A stretch of DNA of 54,548 nt from a virus, in the IMG/VR virus record IMGVR_UViG_3300015373_000006, positions 1-54,548 of that record, one strand, 5' to 3'. The notes beneath the pieces are model-generated. The model was not told the DNA's origin. It was given only the letters and a program-made list of their open reading frames with translations, and did not search any database. The translations under genes were made by a program, and so were the position numbers. This document shows positions 1-48,861 of this stretch, piece after piece. The stretch's first letter is position 1, and every line of letters begins with the position of its first letter.

Positions 1-35
1 CCGCGCCAAGCGATGCCCCGCCTCGCCCCTCCGAG

Positions 36-440
36 CGCACCATGCCTGCCTAGCCAAACCGAGCCTGAGCCTGGACCCGACGAGCCTAGCCATACCAATC
101 CGCGCCTGCCACGCCCTGCGGAGACGAGCCGATGCCTTGCCGGACGATGCCACTCCACGCCGCGCCAAGACCAGCCTGCCGCGCCGTACCGTGCCCCGCT
201 GTGCCCCGCCGCAGCCATGACGGGCCTCGACAGGCCACGCTGTACCTCGCCCCGTCCGGTCGTGCCTTGCCTAGCCTGCCTAGCCGAGCGCTGCCAAGCC
301 ACGCAGGGCCGAGCGGTGACAAGCCTAGACAAGCCATGCCGACGCGCAACCGAGCCGTGACAAGCGGAACCATGCGATGCCAAGCCTGCCTTGCCTCGCC
401 GGACCGAGCGCCGCCAAGCCGCGCACGGACGCGCCCTGCC
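36..440. repeat. Noncoding tract with strict 5-bp periodicity
   Basis: Cut into pentamers from base 1, this stretch keeps one phase without slipping: from pentamer 8 (36-40) to pentamer 88 (436-440), the fifth base is C in 66 of 81 pentamers by hand count. Typical units are CAAGC, CATGC, CTAGC and CTGCC. The unit sequence varies, so it is a period rather than a simple tandem repeat. The open frames across it are by-products of the composition; none has a ribosome binding site. A shorter tract with the same rule on the other strand lies at 48893-48955. Confidence 0.85.
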
Positions 441-444
441 CACG

Positions 445-479
445 TAAAAATGGGGAGCCGAGCGTCGCACTCGGCTCCC
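445..479 (-). terminator. Intrinsic terminator of the leftward early operon
   Basis: A perfect 10-bp stem (453-462 with 470-479, GGGAGCCGAG/CTCGGCTCCC) with a 7-base loop is followed, on the minus strand, by CATTTTTACG. It lies about 70 bp beyond the stop of the last leftward gene and just inside the edge of the 5-bp periodic tract. Confidence 0.85.
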
Positions 480-550
480 GTTGTCCGGGTTCACCGATCT
501 CACATTGATCGGATCGCCCTCGCCCTGCATCAGCGACGGCAGGGCCGCAC

Positions 551-1012
551 TTACGCTGCCATGCTCGCTGGCAACTCTTTCGCGCATGAGACTCCGTACT
601 CAGCCAGCGTCTCCATCATCTGATCGCAGAACGCGATGGAGCGCTGGATGCCGTTCAGTTGGCCGAGGAGAAGCATCTTGCGGGCCTTCCAATCTTCGAT
701 CCGCATTTCCTCAAACCGTCGCTCTACCCCGTCACCGACTCGGTATTTCTTGCCCCACAGGGAGGTGATACCGCCGACCGCGAGTGCGGTTTCGGTGGCA
801 GTCCGGGGATGCCCCGTGGAGCGGAGAGCTGAAAGAGCCATCGCCTCCCGCGAACGAGTCAGCGCCCGTTGCAGGTGGACAACCTCGTCGGCGACCAGCG
901 GCTCCAACTCGGCCTTCGTGTGCGCCGAGAGGAATTCCCGAGCGATCACCTCAGGCGGGTCGTCAGGATCGGCAGCTAGGACGAACTCGCGTAGTGCTTG
1001 TGCGAGAGTCAC
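551..1012 (-). CDS. Conserved-looking hypothetical protein, 153 aa
   Basis: I do not recognise this family. The protein is mostly helical by composition, with a charged N-terminal half and no signal peptide, membrane segment or cysteine cluster. It starts at GTG (1012-1010), which overlaps the TAG of the upstream gene by one base, so translation is probably coupled. It is the last gene of the leftward operon, before the terminator at 445-479. The upstream partner is the protein with a glycine-rich RAMP-like loop, so the two may act together, but nothing in the sequence shows this directly. Confidence 0.75.
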   Translation of the reverse strand: MTLAQALREFVLAADPDDPPEVIAREFLSAHTKAELEPLVADEVVHLQRALTRSREAMALSALRSTGHPRTATETALAVGGITSLWGKKYRVGDGVERRFEEMRIEDWKARKMLLLGQLNGIQRSIAFCDQMMETLAEYGVSCAKELPASMAA

Positions 1013-1596
1013 TAGCTCGTCACCTTGACCTCGGCCTCAAAGCGCCCGTAGCCGATTGCCCGTCCATCGCCGATCCCGATTGCACGGCCAGCCAGATCGA
1101 CCAGCCGTTCCAACTCGTCGTAGTTGAGGCCCGCATCCTCCAACAGCACGGCCGGGACCTCCAGCGACCACGGCATGAATTGGGGCCGGACGCGCATCAC
1201 GCGCTTGCCGCCGACGCCCACGCTCATGCGCGAGACGTAGCCGTTGCCCGTGGCGAAAATCTCGTCCGGGTCCTTCGGCCCTTCGTAGATCAGGGGCACG
1301 TTGAGGGAGGTCATCACGAGCGACCGCTCGACGTGCTTGCCCAACTTGCTGATCCGGCCCGCTTCGATGATCGACTTGCGGACCTTGGCGGAGGGCTGGA
1401 ACACGCCCGTCTCCTCGTCGTAGTAGAGGCCGCCGTGCCACTCCAAGACCGCCATGCGTGCCAGATCGTCGTCGGTCTTTTTCCGCTTGCTGGTGATCGA
1501 CTTCAGCTCCCGGTTGATCGGGAAGTCGGGATCGACCATGCGCGGGTTGTGCATGAGCAGAGGCGATACGCCCTTTAGTGCGATTGAAACGTCCAA
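1012..1596 (-). CDS. Phage protein with RAMP-like glycine-rich C-terminal loop, 194 aa
   Basis: The start is TTG (1596-1594), 6 nt after GGGAG in a structured leader. The N-terminus has SPLLMHNPRM and a conserved-looking basic stretch (TSKRKKTDDD); the C-terminus has GIGDGRAIGYGRFEAEV. That glycine pattern (GxGxxxGxGxF) resembles the G-loop of RAMP/Cas7-fold RNA-binding proteins. From memory, similar proteins with the same start and end are common in phages and have no fixed function. A nucleic-acid-binding RAMP-like fold is my inference; no catalytic residue is evident. It opens a transcription unit with its own promoter (1632-1647). Confidence 0.7.
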   Translation of the reverse strand: MDVSIALKGVSPLLMHNPRMVDPDFPINRELKSITSKRKKTDDDLARMAVLEWHGGLYYDEETGVFQPSAKVRKSIIEAGRISKLGKHVERSLVMTSLNVPLIYEGPKDPDEIFATGNGYVSRMSVGVGGKRVMRVRPQFMPWSLEVPAVLLEDAGLNYDELERLVDLAGRAIGIGDGRAIGYGRFEAEVKVTS

Positions 1597-1602
1597 ACCT
1601 TG

Positions 1603-1617
1603 CTCCCTTCAGTGGAG
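1603..1617 (-). promoter_or_regulatory. Start-associated RNA hairpin enclosing the Shine-Dalgarno
   Basis: On the minus strand CTCC-ACTGAAG-GGAG forms a 4-bp stem with the loop ACTGAAG; the GGGAG half is the ribosome binding site for the TTG start at 1596. It is one of six structured copies in the window with a constant ACTGAAGG core. Confidence 0.65.
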
Positions 1618-1631
1618 TAGGGATTAGCCCT

Positions 1632-1647
1632 GTTCACTTGCAGTATA
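1632..1647 (-). promoter_or_regulatory. Putative promoter, TATACT-N4-GTGAAC type
   Basis: TATACT (1647-1642) is followed after four bases by GTGAAC (1637-1632) in the 71-bp gap between two genes. The same arrangement occurs at 4778-4793 and 6027-6042. No good -35 box is visible at any of them. Confidence 0.55.
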
Positions 1648-1667
1648 GCAGCTAATGGCATCGCCTC

Positions 1668-1967
1668 CTATTCATGCGTGCTTTCGTCCAGGCTTTCAAG
1701 TGCTGCCCGAACTCGCTTGCGTGCGTTCACGGGGTCTAACTTCGCAGCCTCCCGCAGCGCGTCTATCGCCTGCTGGCGAGCCTCTTGCGATGCGTCTAGA
1801 TAGCCGTTGAGCGCTTCCACGTCGGCTTTCAGGTCGTCCCGTTCCGCCTGCGCCTGCTGTAGCTCGCCCTCCAGCCGTTCGATCTGAGTCGTCAGCCAAG
1901 CAATGCGCGTGTACGGATCGGCGCGGGTCGGCTCGTCGTTCAGGATCGTGTCGGCGTGGTCGGTCAT
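1668..1967 (-). CDS. Coiled-coil protein, 99 aa
   Basis: Residues from about 25 to 75 form a strong heptad pattern rich in Leu, Gln and Glu, so an extended coiled coil is likely. No other domain is visible. The ATG (1967-1965) overlaps the stop of the upstream gene in ATGA. A paralogue lies at 17295-17582: both carry an (Q/R)QAIDALRE segment and share 25 identical bases (1749-1773 and 17382-17406), which suggests duplication or recombination within the phage. Confidence 0.75.
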   Translation of the reverse strand: MTDHADTILNDEPTRADPYTRIAWLTTQIERLEGELQQAQAERDDLKADVEALNGYLDASQEARQQAIDALREAAKLDPVNARKRVRAALESLDESTHE

Positions 1968-2635
1968 TGCGCCTCCGCCACGAGCGTTATGTCGATCAGG
2001 TCGGCGGCGTCCACGACAACCTCCTGCTCCGCGCGATCATCGAAGTAACCGAGGACCTTGCCAGCGGGGACGTAGGCTCGCCAGATCGACGGCACCCCAT
2101 CCTCGTCGTAGAGGCCGAGGAACATACCGCGCAGCGACTTCGTGGCCGATGCGAAGAACACGGCTTGGTCGTAGTCGAGCGTCCAAGAGCCGACGCCCTC
2201 GTCCGGCGTCTCGCCGTTGTTGCCCCGAAAAATAGTCACCATCCCAGAAGGCAACGGACGCGGATGGTCCTCGTCCAGCGTCTCCACGTAGGCAACGCGC
2301 TTAATGAGGTCGTGCATCCCGGCACGCAGCACCGGATCGCCGGACCAGGCTTCGGTCACGCTCCACCATTTCTCTACCAGCCGCCGCGCCTCGCCGTCGC
2401 ACACATCGGCGCAGCAGGCGATCAGCGGCAGGGCGCGTTGCTCCGAGCCGTGCATCACCAGCACGCGGTCGTAATCGCCCTCCTCCATCGCCTCGCGGAT
2501 CACGTCGTCCTTTCTAGCCAGCGAGTCGAGCGCCCTTTGCCACATGGGGCGGTCGGCCTCAGGCATCGCGTCGATCTGCTCCTGCGTCAGCATCGGCTCA
2601 CGGAGAGCCTGCACTAGCTCGTCCTTCTCGGTCAT
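1964..2635 (-). CDS. Putative mono-ADP-ribosyltransferase-like protein, 223 aa
   Basis: The C-terminal half carries the R-S-E signature of ADP-ribosyltransferases in order: Arg137 in a FRG context, Ser150 in SWTLDYDQAVFFA, and E203-x-E205 in EQEVVVD. The strands around them (WRAYVP, KVLGYFDDR) fit the NAD-binding core. The ExE motif points to arginine as acceptor. The N-terminal 120 residues are helical and of unknown role. The ATG start follows GAGGGAG. Phage ARTs such as those of T4 modify host RNA polymerase or translation factors; a similar host-takeover role is inference. The gene sits inside an operon of small early genes with 4-bp overlaps on both sides. Confidence 0.65.
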   Translation of the reverse strand: MTEKDELVQALREPMLTQEQIDAMPEADRPMWQRALDSLARKDDVIREAMEEGDYDRVLVMHGSEQRALPLIACCADVCDGEARRLVEKWWSVTEAWSGDPVLRAGMHDLIKRVAYVETLDEDHPRPLPSGMVTIFRGNNGETPDEGVGSWTLDYDQAVFFASATKSLRGMFLGLYDEDGVPSIWRAYVPAGKVLGYFDDRAEQEVVVDAADLIDITLVAEAQ

Positions 2636-2808
2636 GGTCGCTCCCTCAATCTGTTTTCCAGCCGGATCAGCTCGCGCTGCTCGTGTCGGATGATCGCAGC
2701 GACTCGTTCGGCTTCCACGCACTCGTCGCAGAGGTCGCCGGGTTTGGCGAGCGCGTCAGGCTCGCCCGTCGGCAGGGTGATGATCGCGTTGCAGGCGTCG
2801 CAGCGCAT
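2632..2808 (-). CDS. Small zinc-ribbon protein, 58 aa
   Basis: The protein begins MRCDACNA and has a second pair in CDECVEAE, so two CxxC knuckles about 25 residues apart can bind one zinc ion; a basic helix rich in Arg follows. This is a common layout in actinophage early genes, where such proteins are thought to bind nucleic acid. The start overlaps the upstream stop in TGATG and its stop overlaps the next start in ATGA, which supports its reality despite the small size. Confidence 0.8.
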   Translation of the reverse strand: MRCDACNAIITLPTGEPDALAKPGDLCDECVEAERVAAIIRHEQRELIRLENRLRERP

Positions 2809-3323
2809 CAGAACTCCGGTGGCTGGAAGCCGAGTTTCTTGCGATGCTCGCCGAGCGTTTGCGACACGGCCTCAGCCCACGCGCGGTCCGGGGATTGCCC
2901 AACGGCCAGCCCCATGCACAACTCGTCCACGAGGTCGATGAGCGAGCCGAGTGCTTGCCTCATTGTCTCTGAGGCGTCAGCGTGGAGCATCCCGGCGCTG
3001 GAAATCAGGTCCACCTTCTCGGCTAGGTCGAGTTGCCCGTCGAGGGCGGAGCCGAGCGCTTCGGCACGCTCCCTCTGTAAGTCTCGGTCCTCGCGCAGCG
3101 CGATCACCTCAGCGATTAGGTCGAGCCGTCGTTGCCGACGCTCCTCGGGAGTGTGTGGCCCGAGCATTTCGCGCAGCCACTTCGGTACGTCGTCGTTGCC
3201 CGCATCCTCGCGCAGCACGCGAGCGAGGTGTTCCAGGCGGTCGGTGTCGCAATACTCGCCCTCATCGACGCCGCGTAGCTGGTCGAGATAGTCGGCTGCT
3301 TCCTCGCGTTCTTCGGGTGTCAT
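2808..3323 (-). CDS. Hypothetical helical protein, 171 aa
   Basis: A wholly helical, charged protein with no cysteine cluster or membrane segment; the family is not recognised. I chose the ATG at 3323, 5 nt after GGAG and overlapping the upstream stop in ATGA, over a GTG two codons earlier. It may be an adaptor or structural early protein, but there is no direct evidence of function. Confidence 0.75.
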   Translation of the reverse strand: MTPEEREEAADYLDQLRGVDEGEYCDTDRLEHLARVLREDAGNDDVPKWLREMLGPHTPEERRQRRLDLIAEVIALREDRDLQRERAEALGSALDGQLDLAEKVDLISSAGMLHADASETMRQALGSLIDLVDELCMGLAVGQSPDRAWAEAVSQTLGEHRKKLGFQPPEF

Positions 3324-3520
3324 TCCCACTCCAAACTCAGGCGTAGGGTTCGGGCGATGACGAGCGCGTCGCTGGAACGCAACCAGCCGAGCGCGGCCTC
3401 GCTCCCATCCGGGTAGATCAGCCTCACGGGGCCGATCACTTCGCCGTCCACTTCATCCTCGTCTTTCATTGCGATGCGAACGGGCGTCGGGGTGACGATT
3501 GTGTAGGGCCGCCCGATCAT
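3320..3520 (-). CDS. Hypothetical protein, 66 aa
   Basis: A small, beta-rich protein (IGRPYTIVTP, GPVRLIYPDGSEAALGWL) without recognisable domain. The ATG overlaps the preceding stop by four bases, as throughout this operon. Function unknown. Confidence 0.65.
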   Translation of the reverse strand: MIGRPYTIVTPTPVRIAMKDEDEVDGEVIGPVRLIYPDGSEAALGWLRSSDALVIARTLRLSLEWE

Positions 3521-3621
3521 ACGAACAGTCCGATCAGGTTCGGAATGTGGCCCGTGAACATGAAGTCCAGCGCAAAAAATCCGAGTACCCAGAGCAGCGA
3601 ATGTTCGATGCGCTTGCTCAT
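3517..3621 (-). CDS. Single-pass membrane peptide, 34 aa
   Basis: MSKRIEHS is followed by one hydrophobic segment (LLWVLGFFALDFMFTG) and a short tail, so an inner-membrane peptide with a cytoplasmic N-terminus is likely. The ATG follows GGAGGGG by six bases and overlaps the upstream stop in ATGA. It is the first of several tiny membrane peptides in the early operon; the role is unknown. Confidence 0.7.
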   Translation of the reverse strand: MSKRIEHSLLWVLGFFALDFMFTGHIPNLIGLFV

Positions 3622-3800
3622 CGCATACCCCTCCAATTCCGGTACGTCTGCCGACCACGGAGCCAGCAGGCGAGCCGCCAGCGCAAAAGTGCGCGGCGGT
3701 TCAGAGTCGTCGTGTCGAGGTGGAGTGGACAGTCCTGCGCGTACCACGCCTTCGTCACGGCCTCGGGGTGAATCAGCCGTCCGACCTTCGCCCGGATCAT
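3618..3800 (-). CDS. Hypothetical basic protein, 60 aa
   Basis: A small, Arg- and Trp-rich protein with one domain-like stretch (EAVTKAWYAQDCPLHLD). Its N-terminal half resembles nothing I know; the C-terminal basic tail could bind nucleic acid or membranes. The gene is held between ATGA overlaps on both sides, which is the main support. Confidence 0.65.
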   Translation of the reverse strand: MIRAKVGRLIHPEAVTKAWYAQDCPLHLDTTTLNRRALLRWRLACWLRGRQTYRNWRGMR

Positions 3801-3925
3801 GCGATCACCTGCGCGATCACCAACGCGAGCCAGGAAAAGAGGTAGTAGGCCAGAGCTACGAGCAGGGCTACCTGCAACGGGATGAGGACGTACAAGTGCA
3901 GGTTGTTCCAGCGTTGCGGCGTCAT
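3797..3925 (-). CDS. Membrane peptide, 42 aa
   Basis: After MTPQRWNNLH, almost the entire peptide is hydrophobic (YVLIPLQVALLVALAYYLF, then WLALVIAQVIA), enough for one long or two short membrane segments. The start overlaps the upstream stop in ATGA. Function unknown. Confidence 0.65.
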   Translation of the reverse strand: MTPQRWNNLHLYVLIPLQVALLVALAYYLFSWLALVIAQVIA

Positions 3926-4137
3926 TCCTCGTCCCACCTCTCCCCCGCGTACAGCGGGTCGAAATCGGCAGGAGGGATCGGCGAGTCCGGGTAGCGCTCG
4001 TTGATTCGCTCCTGCTCGTCCAGGCGCTCGCCCCAATGCTTGTCGCAGCGAGGGAACGCCCTGCCCGTGGGCGAGAGCGGGAGACGGTATTGCACCGCCC
4101 CCTCGCAGTCGCCCTTGCGACGATCCAAGCACTCCAT
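3922..4137 (-). CDS. Conserved-type actinophage protein with Cys/His residues, 71 aa
   Basis: The sequence MECLDRRKGDCEGAVQYR with PLSPTGRAFPRCDKHW holds three cysteines and one histidine that could form a zinc site; an acidic tail with PPADFDPLYAGERWDEE follows. I recall similar short proteins in many actinophage early regions, all of unknown function. The start overlaps the upstream stop in TGATG. Confidence 0.75.
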   Translation of the reverse strand: MECLDRRKGDCEGAVQYRLPLSPTGRAFPRCDKHWGERLDEQERINERYPDSPIPPADFDPLYAGERWDEE

Positions 4138-4526
4138 CAGATCGTCCAATCCTCGGGCAGCGTCTCGGGCACCTTGAAGCCCACGTCGTCCGGGTTCGGC
4201 ATTTCCAATGCCGCCACCGTTTTGTCGAGGTCCACCAGCTCCGTGACCATCGCGGCCTTCGCTTCCCAGGGCAGGCATTTGGTAACGGTGCCCATGATCG
4301 TCTCCTGGTCAGCCTCGGGGTCAATCTCCTGCGCCGCGTTCAGGCAGGCCATACCGATACCGAACATGATGCCGCGAGCCGACGTGCGGTAGGTGTTGGC
4401 CTCGTCGTCCCAGAGGAGGATGCCTGCCTCCTCCGACTCGCGGAGTCGCTGGCGGGTGTATTCGGGATCGAAAACACCAGCGCCGGGGAGGTCCTCGTCA
4501 GGAATGTCGTTCTCGTGCGTCGTCAT
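4137..4526 (-). CDS. Hypothetical protein, 129 aa
   Basis: Acidic N-terminus (MTTHENDIPDEDLPGAG) then a mainly helical body; family not recognised. The ATG at 4526 lies 6 nt after GGGAG of a structured leader (4532-4546). A longer reading frame upstream has no ribosome binding site. It heads a run of overlapping genes. Confidence 0.75.
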   Translation of the reverse strand: MTTHENDIPDEDLPGAGVFDPEYTRQRLRESEEAGILLWDDEANTYRTSARGIMFGIGMACLNAAQEIDPEADQETIMGTVTKCLPWEAKAAMVTELVDLDKTVAALEMPNPDDVGFKVPETLPEDWTI

Positions 4527-4531
4527 GCTTG

Positions 4532-4546
4532 CTCCCTTCAGCGGAG
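4532..4546 (-). promoter_or_regulatory. Start-associated RNA hairpin (copy 2)
   Basis: CTCC-GCTGAAG-GGAG on the minus strand, a 4-bp stem with the Shine-Dalgarno in its 3' arm. It begins exactly at the stop codon of the upstream gene. Confidence 0.6.
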
Positions 4547-4756
4547 TTAGTGCGACAGCCAGCCCGGAAGCTCCGGGGGCTGCTCTACGTCGATCACGGG
4601 CGCGAACAACACGCCCTCGTCCGTCAAGCGACACTCGTACTGCTGGTCGCGCGGCAGCAGCCGGGCGATGCGTGCCGGGACGGTGAACGTGAACCGATCA
4701 GGCTCGCCATCCTTGGCCCGGCTAGAGCGTGCCGTGCGGAGTTTGAGTAGTGCCAT
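4547..4756 (-). CDS. AbrB/SpoVT-like small DNA-binding protein, 69 aa
   Basis: The core FTFTVPARIARLLPRDQQYECRLTDEGVLFAPV has the swapped-hairpin pattern of AbrB-type proteins: a strand ending in (V/I)P, a short helix, then strands closing with EGVLFAP. Such proteins bind DNA as dimers and often act as antitoxins or transition regulators. No toxin gene is recognisable next to it. The ATG at 4756 follows AGAGGAG by four bases. A longer in-frame extension has no support. Confidence 0.6.
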   Translation of the reverse strand: MALLKLRTARSSRAKDGEPDRFTFTVPARIARLLPRDQQYECRLTDEGVLFAPVIDVEQPPELPGWLSH

Positions 4757-4889
4757 GTGACTCCTCTGCTTCCTCGTGTTCACCCTCAGTATAACCCAAG
4801 GGTTCCTCATCCGGGTAGCCAGCCTCCAGAAACTCGCGCTGCCACTTGGGGAGGTCGAGTACGTCGATCAATCGCGTGCGCCGCTCCAA
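4722..4889 (-). CDS. Possible small acidic protein, 55 aa
   Basis: A TTG start (4889) is preceded by GGGAGG nine bases upstream and opens a frame with KWQREFLEAGYPDEEPLG and an acidic tail. It overlaps the AbrB-like gene by 35 bp, and the putative promoter of that gene lies inside it, so one of the two readings may be wrong. Function unknown. Confidence 0.45.
   Translation of the reverse strand: MERRTRLIDVLDLPKWQREFLEAGYPDEEPLGYTEGEHEEAEESHGTTQTPHGTL
4778..4793 (-). promoter_or_regulatory. Putative promoter, TATACT-N4-GTGAAC type (copy 2)
   Basis: TATACT at 4793-4788 and GTGAAC at 4783-4778, upstream of the AbrB-like gene, with the same spacing as at 1632-1647. Confidence 0.5.
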
Positions 4890-4904
4890 AAAAAATCGCC
4901 TCCC

Positions 4905-5135
4905 TCAGATGGGCAGAACCTTGCCGATCTTGTCCAGGGCTGCCAGCGCGTGCCGCTCGCATAGCCGGACCGACCGGGCCGTGTTCTGGCCCTGCTTCGG
5001 CTTTCCTCCGTGCCCCACACGGGACACGATCACCTGCACCCGCACGGGCGCTTCCTTGCCGCACATTGCACAGCGGGCGCGAGACTTCCTGCGTCCCTCA
5101 CCTGTGGCGAATACGGCGTCGAGTTCTTCGGTCAT
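4905..5135 (-). CDS. Small zinc-finger protein, 76 aa
   Basis: One CxxC knuckle (CAMCGKEA) and a later C-x3-H (CERHAL) can form a zinc site. Between them lies a basic loop (GHGGKPKQG). The ATG follows GGGAGG. It is likely a nucleic-acid-binding early protein, but the partner is unknown. Confidence 0.7.
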   Translation of the reverse strand: MTEELDAVFATGEGRRKSRARCAMCGKEAPVRVQVIVSRVGHGGKPKQGQNTARSVRLCERHALAALDKIGKVLPI

Positions 5136-5157
5136 TGATCCTCCCGTGGAGGGTGGT

Positions 5158-5316
5158 CTAAGAGGTCGGGCTGCTGGCGCTGTTCAGGTCGAAGATCACG
5201 CAGTCGAGCGCGTCGCTTACGTGAGCAGCCCAATCCTTCGCCTCTTGATCGTTGGCGAACGGGCCGAACAGCTCGGGGGCGTCGTAGCCGCCCATGAGTA
5301 GGACGTACCAAGTCAC
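5158..5316 (-). CDS. Small protein, 52 aa
   Basis: A GTG start after GGGAGG opens MTWYVLLMGGYDAPELFGPF followed by NDQEAKDWAAHV and a short tail. The pattern of a strand, a helix and an FGPF turn looks like a real folded domain. It is the first gene after a structured leader (5323-5339). Function unknown. Confidence 0.65.
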   Translation of the reverse strand: MTWYVLLMGGYDAPELFGPFANDQEAKDWAAHVSDALDCVIFDLNSASSPTS

Positions 5317-5322
5317 GATTCC

Positions 5323-5339
5323 CACCTCCCTTCAGTGTG
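5323..5339 (-). promoter_or_regulatory. Start-associated RNA hairpin (copy 3)
   Basis: CAC-ACTGAAGGGAG-GTG on the minus strand: the conserved ACTGAAGGGAG sits in a loop closed by a different 3-bp stem from copies 1 and 2. Confidence 0.5.
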
Positions 5340-5379
5340 ACGTTCTAGCCCCGGTCGTTGTCGGGCCGGAGCTACAGCG

Positions 5380-5691
5380 TCAGTCGTCTAGTTCGATGAC
5401 GTTTGTGCCAACCTTGATTGCTTCGATTGCTGCCTCTGACATATGGAAGTAGCGCTTGCCGTTCGGAGCCTGCCTCAGTACGCCGAGCGGGAACGACGGA
5501 CGCGCCTCGTTACTACCACCCGTCAGACGCACATAGAAGCAGTCTTGCTCGCTGCCAGCATCGTCCGGGTGTCCGTTCACCTGGACGCCAGCAGTCCAGC
5601 CCTGAGCCTGCGCCCGGATACCTGAGTTCGCATTGCCGAGCCGGGACACGGGCTGCCGCCCACCTTCAACTACGCCCATGAAGCGTGCCAT
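5380..5691 (-). CDS. Conserved-type actinophage protein, 103 aa
   Basis: The protein opens MARFMGVVEGGRQPVSRLG and continues with GWTAGVQVNGHPDD, a beta-rich pattern I recall from small early proteins of many actinophages, where no function is established. There are no membrane segments or zinc ligands. The ATG follows GGAGGAGGTGACTC. It is the first leftward gene after the foreign island; two 25-bp direct repeats lie just upstream (5712-5764). Confidence 0.75.
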   Translation of the reverse strand: MARFMGVVEGGRQPVSRLGNANSGIRAQAQGWTAGVQVNGHPDDAGSEQDCFYVRLTGGSNEARPSFPLGVLRQAPNGKRYFHMSEAAIEAIKVGTNVIELDD

Positions 5692-5711
5692 GAGTCACCT
5701 CCTCCATTTCG

Positions 5712-5764
5712 GCCCAAAAAAATGTGGCCCTTCAGAATCGCCCAAAAAAATGTGGCCCCTCAGA
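5712..5764 (-). repeat. Two 25-bp direct repeats upstream of the leftward gene
   Basis: Copies at 5712-5736 and 5740-5764 share GCCCA7TGTGGCCC then TCAGA, 28 bp apart, differing at one base. On the minus strand each reads TCTGARGGGCCACA followed by seven T, related to the start-associated leader core. They may be operators or duplicated leaders. Confidence 0.7.
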
Positions 5765-5790
5765 TGGGTCCCAAACCGTGGCCGACCCTG

Positions 5791-5865
5791 CCCTCCGTTG
5801 GCCCGGCCAATTGTTGGTTGGGTCAATCGTTGGCGGGGCCAATCGTTGGCCCGGCCAATAATGGA
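5791..5865. repeat. Five 16-bp iterons at the left edge of the island
   Basis: Units begin at 5791, 5807, 5823, 5839 and 5855, each an 11-bp near-palindrome plus a 5-bp G/C spacer: CCCTCCGTTGG, CCAATTGTTGG, TCAATCGTTGG, CCAATCGTTGG, CCAATAATGGA. The register is exact. A matching array closes the island at 10214-10272. Confidence 0.85.
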
Positions 5866-6409
5866 ATGGGGGTCGCTGTCTGCCATAAGGGGGGCTGGCT
5901 GGCTGCCCTGCCGGGGGCCGCTGCCCTGGGGCTGCCGGGGCCGCTGCCGCTGTCGCTGCCAGCGGGGGGCCGGGGCTGTCTGGGGGCTGCCGGGTCCGGG
6001 GCCGATTGCCTGCCGGGGCTGCCTGCCTTCACCCCTAGTATAGCTGAGACTTTGCAAAGCGGGGCTAGCAGCCGGGGCCGGGGGCAATCGTCCCCAGGGC
6101 CGGGCTTAGTTGCCAGCGGGGGCAATTAGCTAACCGGGCTAACGAGCTGTCAGGGCTGGCGACTAGTTGCCAGGGCTGGCGAATTTCGGCCCCTCAGCCG
6201 GGCGATACTTGCGGGGGCAAGCGAAATTCCCGCAAATAGCGTGTTTACCACGGAGGCAACACTTCGCTATGCGATGGGAAAGCCCCTGGACGAAGGGGGC
6301 CATTTGCAGGGCTTTTCTGTCTGCCCTTCCCTTGTGTTATCCCAGGGGCTTCCCCACACAATCGCTGCCCCTTCCTGGGGGCAGCACAGCGGCAGGGAGG
6401 CCGCAAGCA
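5866..6409. other. GC-rich noncoding left spacer of the island
   Basis: No gene is supported in these 544 bases. The sequence repeats short G/C words such as GGCCGGGG and TTGCCAG. A hairpin at 6279-6316 (AAAGCCC pairing with GGGCTTT, then TTTTC on the + strand) lies in the leader of the ATPase gene and could be an attenuator. A leftward TATACT motif lies at 6037-6042. Confidence 0.6.
6027..6042 (-). promoter_or_regulatory. Putative leftward promoter, TATACT-N4-GTGAA type (copy 3)
   Basis: TATACT (6042-6037) then GTGAAG (6032-6027) on the minus strand, inside the island spacer and directed at the gene at 5691. Spacing matches the other two copies; no -35 box is evident. Confidence 0.4.
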
Positions 6410-7255
6410 ATGGCGACAGCGACAGGTAAGGCAAAGGCAGCGGGACCCCGGACCCGGGGCAGACTGCCGAAGGCAGCGACCCTGCTAGCCGATGATGGAG
6501 GCTGGGCAATGGCAGGGGCAGTTATCGGCCGGGTCCCGAACGTACTGCTTTACGGTCCCCCAGGGACAGGGAAAAGCACACTTGCTGCAAAGCATGGCGG
6601 AGTAAATGCCTTCCGCGTTTACTTGAACGAGGAAATGCCTGCTACGGAATTGCGGGGAGGACCCCTCCCGGCTAATGGGCAATGGGAATGGCAGCACGGT
6701 CCCGGGGTCCTGGCATGGCTGGCAGGGCAGCGGCTCATTCTGGACGAAGTAGATAAGGCAAGCGCAGACACATTTACCTTCCTGCTTGCCTTGCTGGACA
6801 ATCCTGAGACTGCCGGGGTCCACCTTCCTAATGGCGAATACGTATCGCCCCGGGCTGGCTTCCATTCCGTAGCCACTAGCAACTGTCTTGACCCGAACGA
6901 ACTGCCCCCTGCATTGCAGGACCGCTTTTCCGTTTGCGTCAATATCACCCGGCCCCATCCGGCAGCTATCGCTTCGCTACCTAAGGACCTCAGGGAGGCA
7001 GCTAAGACTTCGTGTTCGCTGCCGGAGGACCGCCGGATTTCTATGCGGGGCTGGCAGACATTCGCCAGCCTTCGGGACCTTTTCGGCCCCGAAGCGGCAG
7101 CGAAGGCAGTATGGCGGGACCGGGGGCCAGCGGTCCTTTCGTCCCTGGCGATTGCATCGGCCCCGGGGCTATGTGAAGGGCCATGCGTTTACTGCGGGAC
7201 CCTGACGGACCATTCCGATAGCCGGGGCCGCTTCGTTTGCGGGGGCTGCCGCTAA
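6410..7255 (+). CDS. MoxR-type AAA ATPase with C-terminal zinc ribbon, 281 aa
   Basis: Walker A GPPGTGKS (49-56), Walker B LILDEVD (109-115), a sensor-1-like ATSN (155-158) and an arginine-finger region LQDRF (169-173) identify a MoxR/CobS-like AAA ATPase. The C-terminal 25 residues add two Cys pairs (C259/C262 and C277/C280), a zinc ribbon not usual for the family. The ATG at 6410 follows GGGAGG by nine bases. MoxR ATPases work with VWA proteins, and a VWA protein is encoded two genes downstream with no gap, so the pair probably remodels a target together. Codon use (GAA, GCA, CTA, GTA, GGG) differs from the flanking phage genes. Confidence 0.85.
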   Translation: MATATGKAKAAGPRTRGRLPKAATLLADDGGWAMAGAVIGRVPNVLLYGPPGTGKSTLAAKHGGVNAFRVYLNEEMPATELRGGPLPANGQWEWQHGPGVLAWLAGQRLILDEVDKASADTFTFLLALLDNPETAGVHLPNGEYVSPRAGFHSVATSNCLDPNELPPALQDRFSVCVNITRPHPAAIASLPKDLREAAKTSCSLPEDRRISMRGWQTFASLRDLFGPEAAAKAVWRDRGPAVLSSLAIASAPGLCEGPCVYCGTLTDHSDSRGRFVCGGCR

Positions 7256-7419
7256 TGGCTGCCGCAATCAGACACGCAAAGGTAAAGGGCAGCAAGGGGC
7301 AGCGCGTTCGGACCGCTGCCCCTTGGCTGCCGGAATACGAAAGGGTCCGGCCGGAATATGTATCGCTGGGATATGGCAGGCGGGTCCGGCGGGTCCTTCC
7401 TACAGGGGAAGGGCAGTAG
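7255..7419 (+). CDS. Small basic protein, 54 aa
   Basis: The ATG overlaps the ATPase stop in TAATG, so translation is coupled. The peptide is Arg/Lys-rich (RHAKVKGSKGQRVRTAAPW, then LGYGRRVRRVLP) with no membrane segment or cysteine. It could bind nucleic acid or bridge the ATPase and the VWA protein; neither is shown. Confidence 0.6.
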   Translation: MAAAIRHAKVKGSKGQRVRTAAPWLPEYERVRPEYVSLGYGRRVRRVLPTGEGQ

Positions 7420-7421
7420 AT

Positions 7422-9257
<1,836 letters not shown>

Positions 9258-9266
9258 GAAGGGGCA

Positions 9267-9371
9267 ATGGCAATGCAGACTTATCTAAGCCCGGCAGGAT
9301 TCGCGGTCTTAGTGATTGCGGCCCTGGCAATTCGCATGGCCCTGGCTTCCATCGGAAGGCATAAGGGCTAG
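9267..9371 (+). CDS. Single-pass membrane peptide, 34 aa
   Basis: MAMQTYLSPAG precedes one hydrophobic helix (FAVLVIAALAIRMALA) and a basic tail, so an inner-membrane peptide is likely. AGGAAGGGG precedes the ATG. It lies nine bases after the VWA stop and is the last gene of the island operon; it might anchor the ATPase/VWA pair at the membrane. Confidence 0.6.
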   Translation: MAMQTYLSPAGFAVLVIAALAIRMALASIGRHKG

Positions 9372-10213
9372 CCCCCGGGCAGACATAGCAAGCAGGGCCA
9401 GCGGCCCCGGGTGAAGCCAGCCCGGGGCCGCAATCGTTCCGGGGCCATGTAAGCCCCGCTGCCGACAGCGGCAGGGGTCCGAAGGCAAGCAGCCGGGGCC
9501 GGGGGCCGGGGGCAGCCAGCGGCCCCCAGGTAGCCAGCGGGGGGCAGCCGGACCGGGGCCAGCCCGGGGGCTATTCCGGCAGCGCTGCCAGCGGCCCCCA
9601 GGGGACCGGGGCCGGGGGGCGAAGGCTGGCAGCCGGGCCAGCGAGGGAAGCCCGGCAGCGGGGCAGCCAGCGGCAGCGAGGGGCAGCCAGCCCGGGCCAG
9701 CCATGCCAGCAAGGGCCGGGCCAGCCAGCGGCCCTGTAAGCCCCTCTAAGCCCCTGCCCTGCCGGGCCATGCTGGGGGCCGGGCGATGGGGACAGCGGCC
9801 CCTCAGGGCTTAGAGGGGCAGCCCGGGGGCCATTGCAGCCGGGGCCGCTTGCAGCCGGGGGCGATGGGGGGCTGCCAGCAAGGGCCGCCAGCGGGGGCCG
9901 CCAGCCCCCGGGCCGCAGCTCGGTCCCAGCTCGCCAGCGGGCCAGCGGGGGAAATTGAAAAGCCCCCATTAGCAGGGGCTTTATCGACATCCGGCAGCCT
10001 ATTCCGGCCCCTGCCGGGGCTGCCGACATCCGGGGCCGGGGGCGAAATAGCCGGGCGAGATCGTACTAAAGCCCTGCATATCGGCAGTTTTCAATTATGC
10101 GGGGCTGCCTCGTGTTCCAGGTAGGGCCGGGCCATCGAAGGGGCCGGGGCCATCGCCGACACGAGGGGCAGCCGGGGCCGGGCGATAGGTAGCCGGGCTA
10201 GATATGGAATGGG
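9372..10213. other. GC-rich noncoding right spacer of the island
   Basis: About 840 bases without a supportable gene. Long open frames on both strands reflect the lack of A/T-rich stops. Structure visible: a perfect 9-bp inverted repeat (9403-9411 with 9421-9429) right after the last gene, a 12-bp palindrome GGCAGCGCTGCC (9578-9589), many CCGGGGCC and CAGCGG words, and a hairpin at 9959-9982. Confidence 0.6.
9959..9982 (+). terminator. Possible terminator in the island spacer
   Basis: AAAGCCCC pairs with GGGGCTTT around an 8-base loop, giving a U-rich 3' edge (TTTAT) on the + strand. It would end a rightward transcript from the island; the U-run is short. Confidence 0.5.
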
Positions 10214-10272
10214 CCGACGATAGGCCGGGCCGATCATTGGCCGCGCCAATCGTTGGAGGGGCCAATCATTGT
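10214..10272. repeat. Four 16-bp iterons at the right edge of the island
   Basis: Units start at 10214, 10230, 10246 and 10262: CCGACGATAGG, CCGATCATTGG, CCAATCGTTGG and CCAATCATTGT, separated by 5-bp G/C spacers. The unit length, spacer length and consensus match the left array (5791-5865). Confidence 0.85.
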
Positions 10273-10436
10273 TTTTAGGTCCTATCTACGAGCGGGACCC
10301 CGCGCAGAGTCTTATTTCTCTCCCCATTTTCGTTTTGCCCTGCAAATGGCCGTTTTCGACCCGGGCAACTGCTTGGTTGAGCCAAATACGCCGTGATTCG
10401 GCCTGAAATACCCCGATGGCCCTGGCGAACAGAACC

Positions 10437-10457
10437 CCCCGCAAATCGGGGCTTTTT
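10437..10457 (+). terminator. Intrinsic terminator, right of the island
   Basis: CCCCG-CAAAT-CGGGG followed by CTTTTT on the + strand, beyond the right iterons. It overlaps the stop of the convergent membrane-peptide gene by two bases. Bases 10273-10436 hold nothing else that I can identify. Confidence 0.75.
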
Positions 10458-10545
10458 AGCGCCTCAGAAGCAGCAATGCGATGACCATTATCAGGCCCAC
10501 GAGGACGAGAATCTGGAACGTCGTCTCGTTGAGTGCGGCGATCAT
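10456..10545 (-). CDS. Single-pass membrane peptide, 29 aa
   Basis: MIAALNETTF then one hydrophobic helix (QILVLVGLIMVIALLLL) ending RR. The ATG overlaps the upstream stop in ATGA and follows AGAGGGGG. It is the last gene of the long leftward operon; role unknown. Confidence 0.65.
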   Translation of the reverse strand: MIAALNETTFQILVLVGLIMVIALLLLRR

Positions 10546-10850
10546 TGGATCAAGCCCCCTCTCAATGCGATAGCGATGAGGTGGTAATCGTCCTTCGCTG
10601 CGAGCAAGGTCCGTGCGCTACGCAGTCGTCGGTAGATGGCATCGACGCTGACGCCAAGAATCTCGGCCGCGCCTTTGTGCCCGAGTCCATGACTCAGCGC
10701 GTTGATCGCCGCGACTTCCTTGTCGCTCACGATCTCGCGGGGCGTAGGCCCACCGTTCCTGTATCCCTGGCCGTGGAGTTGGGCCTGAATCCTGGTCAGC
10801 GCCGCTTCCCTTCGGTCTGCGTCCGGCCACATCTGCTCCAGCTCGTCCAT
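10542..10850 (-). CDS. LuxR/sigma-4-type helix-turn-helix protein, 102 aa
   Basis: The C-terminal half (INALSHGLGHKGAAEILGVS and on to a long second helix) is a clear GerE/sigma-4-like helix-turn-helix, followed by HLIAIALRGGLI, an ending I recall from small phage regulators. The N-terminus is a short helical region. It probably binds DNA and regulates phage transcription. The ATG at 10850 overlaps the upstream stop in TGATG. Confidence 0.75.
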   Translation of the reverse strand: MDELEQMWPDADRREAALTRIQAQLHGQGYRNGGPTPREIVSDKEVAAINALSHGLGHKGAAEILGVSVDAIYRRLRSARTLLAAKDDYHLIAIALRGGLIQ

Positions 10851-11041
10851 CACTTCTCACCCGATGGTCGGAAGCCGATCTCCACTTTGCGCTTCGCCTT
10901 GGCTGCGGCCTCCGGCAAGAACAAGCCCGACCCCTCATCGAACGCGAAGTCCTTGCTCTCCGGTTCGGGCTTCACGGTCGATTCGCCATAGCCCAACCGC
11001 TGCTTCGGCGCTGGCGCTCTGCCCTTTTGGTGTCTCACCAT
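10850..11041 (-). CDS. Hypothetical protein, 63 aa
   Basis: A basic N-terminus (MVRHQKGRAPAPKQR) and a mixed C-terminus with FDEGSGLFLPEAAAKAK; no known domain. Short overlaps with both neighbours support it. A GTG one codon downstream of the chosen ATG is an alternative start. Confidence 0.6.
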   Translation of the reverse strand: MVRHQKGRAPAPKQRLGYGESTVKPEPESKDFAFDEGSGLFLPEAAAKAKRKVEIGFRPSGEK

Positions 11042-11277
11042 TCGCGGCTCGTCGCGTGCTGCTCAGGTTGCGTGCCGAAGATCACGCCGACAACGCCGCG
11101 CCCGATGGCCGGGATGCCGCGCAAGGTCCGACTGTCCGAGGCCGCCATGTTGAACGTCTGTCGCTCGACCCGCAGCTCGGCGAGGTCGCCTGCCTGCTCG
11201 CGGGCTAGCCGTTCCAGCAGCTTCGCGTTCTCAACGTTCGCGCCGTAGTTTGCGAACCCACGAGGGAATGTCGGCAA
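11035..11277 (-). CDS. Hypothetical protein, 80 aa
   Basis: TTG start (11277) nine bases after AGGAGG. The middle is a helix rich in Leu and Arg (KLLERLAREQAGDLAELRVE), the end beta-like with many glycines. It overlaps the upstream gene by 47 bp. No family recognised. Confidence 0.55.
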   Translation of the reverse strand: MPTFPRGFANYGANVENAKLLERLAREQAGDLAELRVERQTFNMAASDSRTLRGIPAIGRGVVGVIFGTQPEQHATSREW

Positions 11278-11545
11278 GGTCGGCCACCTCCTCCCGCGTC
11301 TTGACTTCGATTTCGATGTCGGCGGGCTTGACGATGACGTGGTTGCGGTCGAGGTGCGGCATCGCCTGATGGATCATTTCAAAGACCCTGTACGCCTGTT
11401 CGCGGCTGACGTACCGTGGCTCGTGGATGGTGACGACCACGTAGTCGTCCTTCTGGATGGTCATTTTCTGCAACGTCGTGCGGAGGCCAGCGATGGTCAG
11501 CTCCGGCCTGATCTTCACGGTGATCGTGTCCGGGGTCTTAGGCAT
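11231..11545 (-). CDS. Hypothetical alpha/beta protein, 104 aa
   Basis: Begins MPKTPDTITVKIRPELTIAG and alternates strands and helices (DDYVVVTIHEP, YRVFEMIHQAMPHLDRN), ending basic. No catalytic motif is visible and the family is not recognised. The ATG at 11545 lies inside the upstream gene's last codons; GGAAGG is the nearest ribosome-binding-like sequence. Confidence 0.65.
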   Translation of the reverse strand: MPKTPDTITVKIRPELTIAGLRTTLQKMTIQKDDYVVVTIHEPRYVSREQAYRVFEMIHQAMPHLDRNHVIVKPADIEIEVKTREEVADLADIPSWVRKLRRER

Positions 11546-11942
11546 GGGCTTCAGCCTTCCCGCCTTCCAGCAGGCCCGGTCGGTACGGATGCTCGTGCCC
11601 GCAGCGGCAACACCGCGCGGTCCCGTCGTCATGGACGATGTGCCACGTCGAGGACGGCTCCTCGTTCGGACAGAATCCGTCGCGCACGTCCTTGCCCTCG
11701 TTCATGCAGAACACGCAAGCGTCGCGTTCGATCCCATGCTGGCACCACTCGTCCTCGGCGTCGAGCGCCATTTGCGCCTCCCGTAGATCGCCAACGATCT
11801 CGTTCGCGTTGCGGCCGATGACCTCACCGTAGGCAAAAACTCGTCCCATGCACATCCCCTGCAAGCCGTTGTCCGTCCTGATGGCGAACGCCCAATGGTT
11901 GATCGCCTCGGCGTAAATAGTCTCTGGCGTCTCAGACATCAT
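11538..11942 (-). CDS. Cysteine-rich zinc-binding protein, 134 aa
   Basis: The N-terminal half is helical (ETIYAEAINHWAFAIRTDNG); the C-terminal half holds CQHG, CVFC, CPNE and CCRCGHEH, enough ligands for two zinc sites. Such proteins are frequent in phage early operons as nucleic-acid- or protein-binding modules. The start (ATGATG) overlaps the upstream stop. Confidence 0.7.
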   Translation of the reverse strand: MMSETPETIYAEAINHWAFAIRTDNGLQGMCMGRVFAYGEVIGRNANEIVGDLREAQMALDAEDEWCQHGIERDACVFCMNEGKDVRDGFCPNEEPSSTWHIVHDDGTARCCRCGHEHPYRPGLLEGGKAEAHA

Positions 11943-12295
11943 CGGTTCAGCCACCACCAAACGATGCGCTGACCGATCCCACGCGGCGGCTGCTGCATCA
12001 CCATCGGTGGGTGGACAACCCCGATACGCGCGAACAGCGGCTCGTTAGCGAGGCAAAGACGGTACTGCTTCCGCAGGCTCCGCGTCTGCTCAAACGCACG
12101 CTGATTCGCTGCGATCTCGTCCAACGTCTCGGTGAGATAAGCGGCAGATGGGTTCGAGGAGCCGGAGCCGGGCTGGGAGATAACCGAGCCAGTCGCCATA
12201 CCCGACGCCCTTTCGCCTTGCTCGGGAGACTCGGGGCGCTGCCCCGGCTCCTCCAACCCATGATCGCACGCGGCATTGTCAACTTGCGGCGGCAT
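11939..12295 (-). CDS. Hypothetical protein, 118 aa
   Basis: Low-complexity first third (Pro, Gly, Ser, Glu), then a helix (DEIAANQRAFEQTRSLRKQY) and a Trp-rich end (IVWWWLNR). No domain recognised. The ATG follows GAGGCTGAGG and overlaps the upstream gene by 17 bp. Confidence 0.6.
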   Translation of the reverse strand: MPPQVDNAACDHGLEEPGQRPESPEQGERASGMATGSVISQPGSGSSNPSAAYLTETLDEIAANQRAFEQTRSLRKQYRLCLANEPLFARIGVVHPPMVMQQPPRGIGQRIVWWWLNR

Positions 12296-12590
12296 GTTCC
12301 TCAGCCTCCCGTTTCAATTGGCGGTCGATGCACGACCAGCGATTGCGACAGACCGTGAGGTTCGCGCCGCGCACGCCCGCATAGCCCTCGATGCGTTCCA
12401 GGTCGCTCGTCGCTCCGCACAGATCGCACGCAGGCGTTGTCGCGGCATCCGAAGCGGGAGCGTCGTGGTGAGTAGCGTCGCCCTTGCAACACGGACACTC
12501 AACCACGTTCCCCTGGACGCGCGGGTCGTAGAGGTAGCCATCCGCGCAGCCGTACTCGCAGGGCGTTGTCGCGGCATCACGGCTAGACAT
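12279..12590 (-). CDS. Zinc-finger protein, 103 aa
   Basis: Two Cys clusters: CEYGCADG with CPCCKGDA, a DnaJ-like CxxxC/CxxC pair, and CDLCGATS followed by further Cys residues in CRNRWSC. Likely two zinc sites. It may bind RNA or DNA; partner unknown. Confidence 0.65.
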   Translation of the reverse strand: MSSRDAATTPCEYGCADGYLYDPRVQGNVVECPCCKGDATHHDAPASDAATTPACDLCGATSDLERIEGYAGVRGANLTVCRNRWSCIDRQLKREAEEHAAAS

Positions 12591-12894
12591 CTTCCAGCGC
12601 TCTCCTAGCTAAAGACTTTGACCCGCCCGCAGCGATTGTCCTCAGCGCCTTTTCGTAACGCGCGATCCGAACGAGAGACTTGTCCGTCACCGCGCCGAGG
12701 CGTTGGATTCGCTCTAGTGCTTCATAGGCGATCCAGAATCCCTCCGCGACCGACGGGAATTCACGCAATTTCGGATTGCCCCAAGGAGGCCCGATAGCGT
12801 CGAGCCGGTCCTCCATCTCTTGCAGAGTCGCCTCACTCCAATCGTCCCGTGCCCTTGCGGCAGTATGCGTGTCGCGCTCGTTTCTCTCAGCCAT
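12583..12894 (-). CDS. Hypothetical helical protein, 103 aa
   Basis: Helical throughout, with DDWSEATLQEMEDRLDAIG and a C-terminal basic helix. Not recognised. The ATG overlaps the upstream stop by eight bases. Confidence 0.65.
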   Translation of the reverse strand: MAERNERDTHTAARARDDWSEATLQEMEDRLDAIGPPWGNPKLREFPSVAEGFWIAYEALERIQRLGAVTDKSLVRIARYEKALRTIAAGGSKSLARRALEDV

Positions 12895-13051
12895 TCGACT
12901 CAGCGCTCCTGCCCTTGCGACCCCGAGCGTGTCGCTTCAGGCAATGGCCGACGTAGCAATAGCGCTGTCCGGTTACTCGGCTGTAAACCCACTTGCCGTT
13001 CTTTAGCCGCCGACCGCAACGAGCGCAGCGGTAATTCCGTGTGCCTGACAT
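12887..13051 (-). CDS. Small zinc-ribbon protein, 54 aa
   Basis: CARCGRRL is followed by a basic beta segment and CYVGHCLKRH, giving a Cys2 plus Cys/His zinc site; the tail is strongly basic. Probably binds nucleic acid. The ATG lies behind a structured leader (13052-13071), so this gene opens a new transcription unit. Confidence 0.75.
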   Translation of the reverse strand: MSGTRNYRCARCGRRLKNGKWVYSRVTGQRYCYVGHCLKRHARGRKGRSAESNG

Positions 13052-13071
13052 AACGCCCCTTCAGTAGCGTT
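13052..13071 (-). promoter_or_regulatory. Start-associated RNA hairpin (copy 4)
   Basis: AACGC-TACTGAAGGG-GCGTT on the minus strand: a 5-bp stem of different sequence around the same ACTGAAGG core, ending directly at the ATG. Confidence 0.65.
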
Positions 13072-13086
13072 TGCACACACATTCTA
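13071..13086 (-). promoter_or_regulatory. Putative promoter upstream of the zinc-ribbon gene
   Basis: TAGAAT (13086-13081), four bases, then GTGCAA (13076-13071), a variant of the TATACT-N4-GTGAA arrangement, in the 35-bp gap between genes. Confidence 0.4.
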
Positions 13087-13308
13087 TCAGGCGTCATTTT
13101 CGGCACCCTTGATCGTCACGCCGATTTCGCCGAGATCAACGTCCAGGGTGGCGTCGTCAGCCAGCAGCTCGACGTAGATCACCCCAGCATGATTCACCTG
13201 AAGGTCGATGACCATGCGGCGCACGTACATCGGGTCGATGCCTGCCTGCTCGCAGATCGCGTTCGCCAGGGCGAAGCGCGTCGGGTCGGTGAAGATGAAC
13301 TTCGCCAT
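13087..13308 (-). CDS. Hypothetical protein, 73 aa
   Basis: A compact alpha/beta protein (MAKFIFTDPTRFALANAI, then VIDLQVNHAGVIYVELL and an acidic strand). No family recognised. The ATG overlaps the upstream stop in TGATG. Confidence 0.65.
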   Translation of the reverse strand: MAKFIFTDPTRFALANAICEQAGIDPMYVRRMVIDLQVNHAGVIYVELLADDATLDVDLGEIGVTIKGAENDA

Positions 13309-13502
13309 CACGCCCTCGCCTTCAGAGCCTTGTGGATGTTCCGGTGGGCGGCGTCGAGGTGTACGCGCACGGTGCCAACCGCAATGTCGCACGCCAGGGC
13401 TATCTGGCGCAAGCTGAAGCCGTGCTTCTCCCGCAGCTCCAGCACCCGAAGCTGCTTCGTGGTGCAGACCTCCTCGGCCGTGTCCCAATACGGGTCGATC
13501 AT
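13308..13502 (-). CDS. Sigma-4/LuxR-type helix-turn-helix protein, 64 aa
   Basis: Almost the entire protein is one helix-turn-helix: TTKQLRVLELREKHGFS, then LRQIALACDIAVGTVRVHLD with a Ser/Thr-capped recognition helix. It resembles sigma factor region 4 or a small LuxR C-domain. It could regulate phage genes or bind near the replication origin in the neighbouring gene. The start overlaps the upstream stop in ATGA. Confidence 0.75.
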   Translation of the reverse strand: MIDPYWDTAEEVCTTKQLRVLELREKHGFSLRQIALACDIAVGTVRVHLDAAHRNIHKALKARA

Positions 13503-14140
13503 CCGCCTACCGTCTCTGCTCGTTTCTGTCGCGCCCACTCGCGCTGCCGACGCCGCTTCGCCCTCAGTCGCTTTCGCTTCAGCGACAACTCCGCGTTGTA
13601 GCGCTTGTCCCACTCGGCCTGGAACTTAGCCTGCTCGTCCGGTGTGCGCCAATGCTCGTTGCGCGGGGCGAGCGGCAACTCCGGCTCACCCCGCATGGCA
13701 GCGCCCCGATGGATCGACCGCTGGTTTCGCCACTCGTTGTTCAGGCGGGCCTCACGCAGCACGGGGATGATCTTTCGCAACGACTCGCGCCGGATGTAGC
13801 GCTGCCTGCCTGTGCGCCAGCGCCAGATGCTCTGGATCGCGCAGCCCGTTCTGCGATGCGTCTCGTTGATGCCGATGCGAACAACCAGCTCCTCAATGAT
13901 CCAGCCGTGCTGCTCCAGCAGCATGAATCTCTCCCACCCCGGAGCGGCACAGTGACACCGCTTGCAGCGGTACTGCGCGACGCGATGCCCGTTCTCGCTT
14001 CTGCCGTAGAAGTCGTACAGCGGGACCCACGCTCCCTCGGGGTGCAGGGGGCCGTAGCACGCCTTGTGTTCGATGCCGCCGATCATCCGCATCGGGGCGA
14101 AGCGACGACCGGGCCTGTACGTGGGGACGGGGATGCTCAA
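13499..14140 (-). CDS. Putative DNA-binding protein with zinc knuckle and HTH, 213 aa
   Basis: An early CKRCHCAAPGW segment suggests a zinc knuckle; IGINETHRRTGCAIQSIWRW fits a helix-turn-helix, and the last 40 residues are extremely Arg/Lys-rich. A nucleic-acid-binding role is likely. I chose the TTG at 14140, whose TTGA overlaps the stop of the upstream primase-like gene; ATG codons further in (MRMIGG) are alternatives. It sits next to the putative iteron cluster, which it might bind. Confidence 0.6.
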   Translation of the reverse strand: MSIPVPTYRPGRRFAPMRMIGGIEHKACYGPLHPEGAWVPLYDFYGRSENGHRVAQYRCKRCHCAAPGWERFMLLEQHGWIIEELVVRIGINETHRRTGCAIQSIWRWRTGRQRYIRRESLRKIIPVLREARLNNEWRNQRSIHRGAAMRGEPELPLAPRNEHWRTPDEQAKFQAEWDKRYNAELSLKRKRLRAKRRRQREWARQKRAETVGG

Positions 14141-16293: not shown

Positions 16294-16423
16294 GGGAGAG
16301 TCGGTCGATCAATTTTCGCCACCAGCGCCGCCGGACCAACGTGCCGTCCGGTACAGCGTCGCAACTCTCGCGCCAGAGGCGGTCTAGCAATGCCTTTTCC
16401 TCAGGCGTCTCCTGGTAGCCCAT
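16286..16423 (-). CDS. Small hypothetical protein, 45 aa
   Basis: MGYQETPEEKALLDRLWRES followed by a basic Trp-rich tail (RRRWWRKLIDRLSRG). AGGGGCAGCGG precedes the ATG, and the stop overlaps the GTG of the replication gene. It may be a cofactor of the primase-like protein; this is only suggested by position. Confidence 0.65.
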   Translation of the reverse strand: MGYQETPEEKALLDRLWRESCDAVPDGTLVRRRWWRKLIDRLSRG

Positions 16424-17167: not shown

Positions 17168-17280
17168 GGCTGCTCCCCGCGCTGCACCACAGGAGGCCAA
17201 TACAAAGTTTGCCCCTGCCGCGAGCGCGTCCATGTATCCCAACTAAACGACAGCGGGAAAGCGCAGACACCGATGGTCAC
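17164..17280 (-). CDS. Possible small protein, 38 aa
   Basis: GTG start; MTIGVCAFPLSFSWDTWTR then QTLYWPPVVQRGEQP. The stop overlaps the next GTG. The final GEQP is shared with the coiled-coil protein just upstream, hinting at local duplication. Function unknown. Confidence 0.45.
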   Translation of the reverse strand: MTIGVCAFPLSFSWDTWTRSRQGQTLYWPPVVQRGEQP

Positions 17281-17294
17281 AACGACCCGCCGCC

Positions 17295-17582: not shown

Positions 17583-17583
17583 A

Positions 17584-48805: not shown

Positions 48806-48861
48806 GGGGGGTGGCTTTCGCATGGGCGTGCGTGCGTGTGGTCGCACTCCACGTTGTCAAG

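Follow-up and report, generated by a model that had tools for sequence, protein, structure and literature searches.

What is a noncoding tract of viral DNA doing with C at most of its fifth bases? The question is posed by positions 36-440 of the window (the whole 54,548-nucleotide stretch analyzed here), for which a sequence-only reading had reported C as the fifth base in 66 of 81 consecutive pentamers. Our recount gave the same number, and we agree that the tract is noncoding and that the pattern is not a coding signal. Autocorrelation at lag 5, a check that this reading had proposed, yielded a self-match of 0.502 in the tract, above all controls up to third order. First-order Markov controls gave 0.306 ± 0.026 with a maximum of 0.39 (n = 2000), and third-order controls, in which most of the local pattern is already reproduced, did not exceed 0.495.

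Register and distribution of the repeat

On the minus strand, an HMM and a unit table resolve window 1-440 into the 88 units of a degenerate (GGY-NN)n array. Most units (78) are five nucleotides long, and the register shifts 10 times through six 4-nt and four 6-nt units, so the phase is not locked, contrary to the earlier statement that it never slips. The slips are invisible in the C phase because the plus-strand GCC has two adjacent Cs and a 1-nt slip still falls on a C. Nor do the other positions vary freely, as had been thought: on the minus strand we counted G 76/89, G 76/88 and C 76/88, followed by NN. Furthermore, 36-440 is too short an extent, since the array reaches base 1 of the contig, where it runs off the edge, and a second array is present at 48893-48953 on the plus strand.

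A search of related phages for similarly phased tracts, which had also been suggested, was strongly positive. An exact pattern of seven GCC triplets spaced 5 bases, scanned over IMG/VR, matched at least 120 contigs, and named phages carry such arrays as well (see below). Among the matches listed plus two named-phage loci, the HMM delineated 208 arrays, mostly of 50-80 bp, and many of these recur within a locus with short conserved spacers in between. Positions 1-3 are G (95%), G (94%) and C (88%; T 9%), and NN is almost free, with neighboring units matching at NN at a rate of 0.085-0.106 vs 0.074 expected. Conserved GGY with nearly uncorrelated NN points to selection on GGY and variability at NN, unlike slippage, and upholds the earlier view that this is not a simple tandem repeat. 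A near-identity blast of window 1-20000 against phage records and a blast with the array of locus L035 gave no match, Rfam had no family in the window or in 15 loci, and a literature search on pentameric repeats or GGCNN found nothing relevant.

The high GC content and the C-rich strand could suggest that the rhythm arose by chance or by simple repeat expansion in GC-rich DNA. We consider this practically negligible, given the lag-5 controls, the finding of zero arrays when shuffled windows were scanned with the array HMM, and the near-independence of neighboring NN in related arrays; the linkage of the arrays to one RAMP gene family, described next, already refutes it.

A RAMP-fold protein beside the arrays

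The arrays of loci L002, L022 and L051 flank a protein that ends in a glycine loop of GxGDxRPxxGRF type. An iterated profile found this protein in 83 of the 120 IMG/VR array loci listed and in Mycobacterium phage Quico, and also in the window, where it lies at 1012-1596 on the minus strand and is 194 aa long with a TTG start (hereafter vipr, for reasons given below). Because the family HMM score of the window protein includes the window protein itself, we cite instead its match to PHROG 4652 (function unknown; E 3e-45) and, below, its match to phage SUSP1; against Pfam, nothing scored above the cut-off. The AlphaFold2 model, built with 61 family members, has a pLDDT of 97.2 and a pTM of 0.90. 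Its top Foldseek hits among PDB structures come from the RAMP subunits of three kinds of complex, type VII, Csm and Cmr (E about 6e-6 to 1e-5, probability 1.0, TM about 0.5). The window protein is thus predicted to have a Cas7/Csm3-type RAMP fold. The gene is intact, and all conserved residues are present. RAMP proteins oligomerise along RNA in CRISPR complexes. The earlier idea of a protein lining the tract therefore holds up insofar as a RAMP partner fits binding every five bases, while a polymer in the DNA groove is unsupported.

Gene and arrays nearly always share a strand. In the array-selected loci listed, GGC lay on the sense strand of the gene in 161/167 array-gene pairs, and the nearest array was a median of 10 bp away. 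For an array-independent test, the window protein served as the sole query and retrieved 79 loci. An array was present within 1.5 kb in 66 of them, and some of the others end close to the gene; 167 of 170 arrays were near the gene, and all of those (167/167) were on its strand. L039 is the sole array locus in which all four arrays are opposite in strand to the vipr gene. Named phages with both the family protein and HMM-found arrays are LESphi2, wV8, LittleE, MakoManhole, Trine, prophiBWHA-1, ODay and UmaThurman.

The noncoding nature of the tract and its 5-nt rhythm would also suit a DNA element, that is, a packaging, partition or origin site where a protein contacts double-stranded DNA at each half turn. 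The arrays argue against this by their strict strand bias with respect to the RAMP gene, their sizes, which match one guide, and their hypervariable NN with register slips, as does the report that the closest studied relative makes RNAs from its arrays (PMC13142463), so we hold such an element to be highly improbable. In particular, the packaging or partition site proposed from sequence finds no support, the arrays being confined to one strand, the sense strand of the RAMP gene, and transcribed in SUSP1 (PMC13142463). The sequence-only reading is partly confirmed: its periodicity is real, and the nature of the tract was misread.

Two observations concern the ends of related arrays. In phage wV8 (L124), positions 3750-3807 and 5143-5200 are annotated only as 58-bp direct repeats, DR_4; these adjoin GGY arrays of the phage's VIPR locus and carry a conserved tail. 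In addition, tRNA-like minihelices follow arrays in a number of actinophages and further contigs: LittleE, MakoManhole, Trine and prophiBWHA-1 (L125-L128) as well as L106, L004, L021 and L147. They take the form of an acceptor-type stem around a T-arm with a GTTCGANTC loop, and ARAGORN calls two of them as tRNAs. They may serve as tails for RNase P-type processing. Pseudoknot tails and hammerhead ribozymes appear in the main text of the VIPR preprint, and tRNA-like minihelices do not (PMC13142463).

The window locus as a VIPR locus

A preprint of 2026 describes a system called VIPR, in which a phage-encoded RAMP protein, Vipr, is accompanied by an accessory gene, vap, and by vrRNAs with 9-16 YNNGG repeats and a structured 3' tail (PMC13142463). 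The NN bases of the vrRNA are reported to pair with double-stranded DNA with one base skipped, whereby transcription is repressed, and the system is aimed mainly at competing phages and satellites (PMC13142463). RNA expression, RNP formation and DNA targeting are reported for the SUSP1 and P. fulva members, and in SUSP1 the arrays are transcribed and vrRNAs co-purify with Vipr (PMC13142463). Our literature search found no further VIPR paper.

By position and homology, we placed the SUSP1 Vipr at KT454805 28474-29061. The window protein shares 33% identity with it over 189 aa (E 5e-36), and the wV8 protein shares 98%. The SUSP1 gene pair is flanked on both sides by GGY arrays, consistent with the mapping of one vrRNA upstream and three downstream (PMC13142463). 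Because protein family, fold, repeat unit, strand and gene order agree, we assign the window locus to VIPR. Specifically, we give a probability of about 0.93 to the reading that the tract is a guide-RNA (vrRNA) array of a phage VIPR system, in which the RAMP protein Vipr and vrRNAs would silence competing elements through a gapped reading of DNA. The guide function of the window copy is inferred from homology, and its guide boundaries and targets are likewise inferred.

By this mechanism, minus-strand transcription would yield an RNA of GGY-NN pentamers. Vipr (1012-1596) would bind the GGY triplets, in one register per five nucleotides, and present the NN dinucleotides. One guide would comprise about 8-15 units, with boundaries probably at the 4-nt GGCA units. 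The NN series of the Vipr-vrRNA complex would then pair with double-stranded DNA, one base being passed over between successive dinucleotides, and the complex would repress transcription of a competing phage or satellite.

The GGCA units are five of the six 4-nt units of the main array (the other is GCTC) and are located, on the minus strand, at 387-390, 277-280, 177-180, 107-110 and 47-50. Across long arrays, 256 four-nt units are GGCA and the next commonest has 14 occurrences. Segments between GGCA peak at 8-15 units with a mode of 11, which is the size of one vrRNA. Separate vrRNAs favor A at N1 of their last two units (143/212 and 108/212). From these statistics, GGCA appears to be punctuation between guides. 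Whole guide segments are duplicated inside one array at L146:6198-6589 and at L139:4587-4881, one pair having an altered 5' part, a hint as to the origin of new guides.

The minus-strand order of the locus is vipr (1596-1012), a 153-aa gene (1012-551), a hairpin (479-453) and the array (440-1). A layout of vipr, a single gene and a long unbroken array recurs in several of its closest relatives (L131-L146, 52-63% identity). The 153-aa gene overlaps the vipr stop and is a candidate vap. Its product had no PHROG or Pfam match above the cut-off, PHROG 5926 included, and a homologue search found it only in L131/L132 (E 2e-11); its model is weak (pTM 0.37). Several relatives carry a PHROG 5926 partner of vipr, and several near relatives carry a different one, winged-helix-looking by eye. 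The hairpin is strong and terminator-like, with 12 pairs and a loop of 3 followed by CATTTTT. We found no promoter-like site upstream of the main array.

The solitary array (48893-48953, plus strand; 61 bp, 12 units by HMM and unit table) has 9 nt upstream of it a sigma-70-like promoter, TTGTCA-18-TAGAAT (48854-48883, plus strand), and looks like a stand-alone guide gene. A short hairpin can form 3' of the array. Taken further, the clade of the window could be a VIPR variant with a long multi-guide transcript, in which GGCA punctuation would be the cue from which Vipr or a nuclease sets guide ends, with an unusual accessory protein and with a solitary guide under its own promoter. We put this forward tentatively, as a proposal that is rather less likely to hold than to fail.

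Strict GGY is found in 67% of main-array units, compared to 83% in the solitary array and 89-100% in the nearest relatives. The low share, together with the four 6-nt units, which are unusual, makes partial decay possible. In the full form of this alternative, the main array would be drifting without usable guides, and only the solitary array, or none, would be active; the failure to find a promoter-like site before the main array is in keeping with it. Against it, Vipr is undamaged, none of its conserved residues is missing, its fold is predicted with confidence, and the GGCA punctuation is retained five times. The SUSP1 arrays, too, hold several non-GGY units (by eye), yet their vrRNAs are reported to be expressed (PMC13142463). 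On balance, we judge a decayed array unlikely and retain the reading of a VIPR guide array.

We searched for guide targets and found none for the window. Exact searches with 12 and 10 units of the solitary guide gave no target in IMG/VR; when up to 3 mismatches were allowed, this guide had none in the window's own record or in 395 genomes of the Piscicoccus class (L212). Neither segment C1 nor one guide of the relative L132 yielded a target. Segment B2 gave one 20-base match, in L222, which was dismissed because both flanking units mismatch and the L222 phage has 31% GC. A global test of the skip rule in about 2 Mb of loci showed little difference between skips, the database being too small. 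One case bears on the code. A guide of L175 with 11 NN units matches a related phage, L180, in its tail-tip gene, with 2/22 mismatches under a one-nt skip, compared to 5-6 under other skips; units one to nine of the guide match perfectly. In L175 itself, the guide NN land on codon positions 1-2 of the homologous gene, and this own copy differs at four positions. The case was picked from 979 guide windows, for which we estimate ~0.06 chance matches (18 exact bases in 2 Mb). It may be taken as supportive of the one-nt-skip code, not as proof.

The large terminase of the window is closest, at about 40%, to those of Rhodococcus, Mycobacterium and Gordonia phages, so the host is likely an actinobacterium. 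Elsewhere in the window, an inverted (plus-strand) block at 5720-10300 contains an AAA_5 ATPase gene (6167-7255) and a VWA-like partner (7323-9257) and is flanked by GC-rich noncoding repeats. In composition it departs sharply from the remainder, with GTG, CAC, GAG and CTC at 0.15-0.29 of their expected frequency vs about 1 elsewhere. The block looks like a recent insertion with an unexplained avoidance of GWG/CWC.

Comparison with known systems

VIPR itself, with RNA-guided DNA recognition, a gapped code and a possible standing as a CRISPR forerunner, was reported in 2026 (PMC13142463). The window locus is a new member of this published kind, some features of which may be new. It adds a VIPR member in an uncultivated, apparently actinobacterial phage and shows that a 5-nt rhythm can reveal a guide array in raw sequence. 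Leads on guide processing come from the GGCA punctuation and from the tRNA-like tails of actinophage arrays.

The VIPR locus of SUSP1 (KT454805; PMC13142463) resembles that of the window in its homologous RAMP protein, its same-strand GGY/NN arrays, and its pairing of vipr with one small gene. However, the vrRNAs of SUSP1 are four in number, lie apart from one another and have a pseudoknot tail, whereas the window has one long contiguous array and a solitary second array. The accessory proteins also differ, that of SUSP1 being of the PHROG 5926 type (as judged from its near-twin wV8). PHROG 4652 proteins of LESphi2, Felixounavirus wV8, mycobacteriophages and Gordonia phages belong to the same family and adjoin GGY/NN arrays, several with separate arrays and a PHROG 5926 partner. 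These are annotated only as hypothetical, and the window locus points to a function for such proteins in Felix O1-like phages, mycobacteriophages and LESphi2.

Class 1 CRISPR-Cas systems (Cas7, Csm3, Cmr) share the RAMP fold with VIPR and, going by the preprint's account of VIPR, an RNP in which the pairing of guide and target is interrupted at regular intervals (PMC13142463). Unlike them, the VIPR locus has one RAMP and lacks CRISPR repeats and spacers as well as adaptation genes; the tract showed no CRISPR repeat-spacer array, and one RAMP gene was found in the window. Finally, the register of VIPR is 5 nt with a gapped code, whereas that of class 1 CRISPR-Cas is 6 nt.
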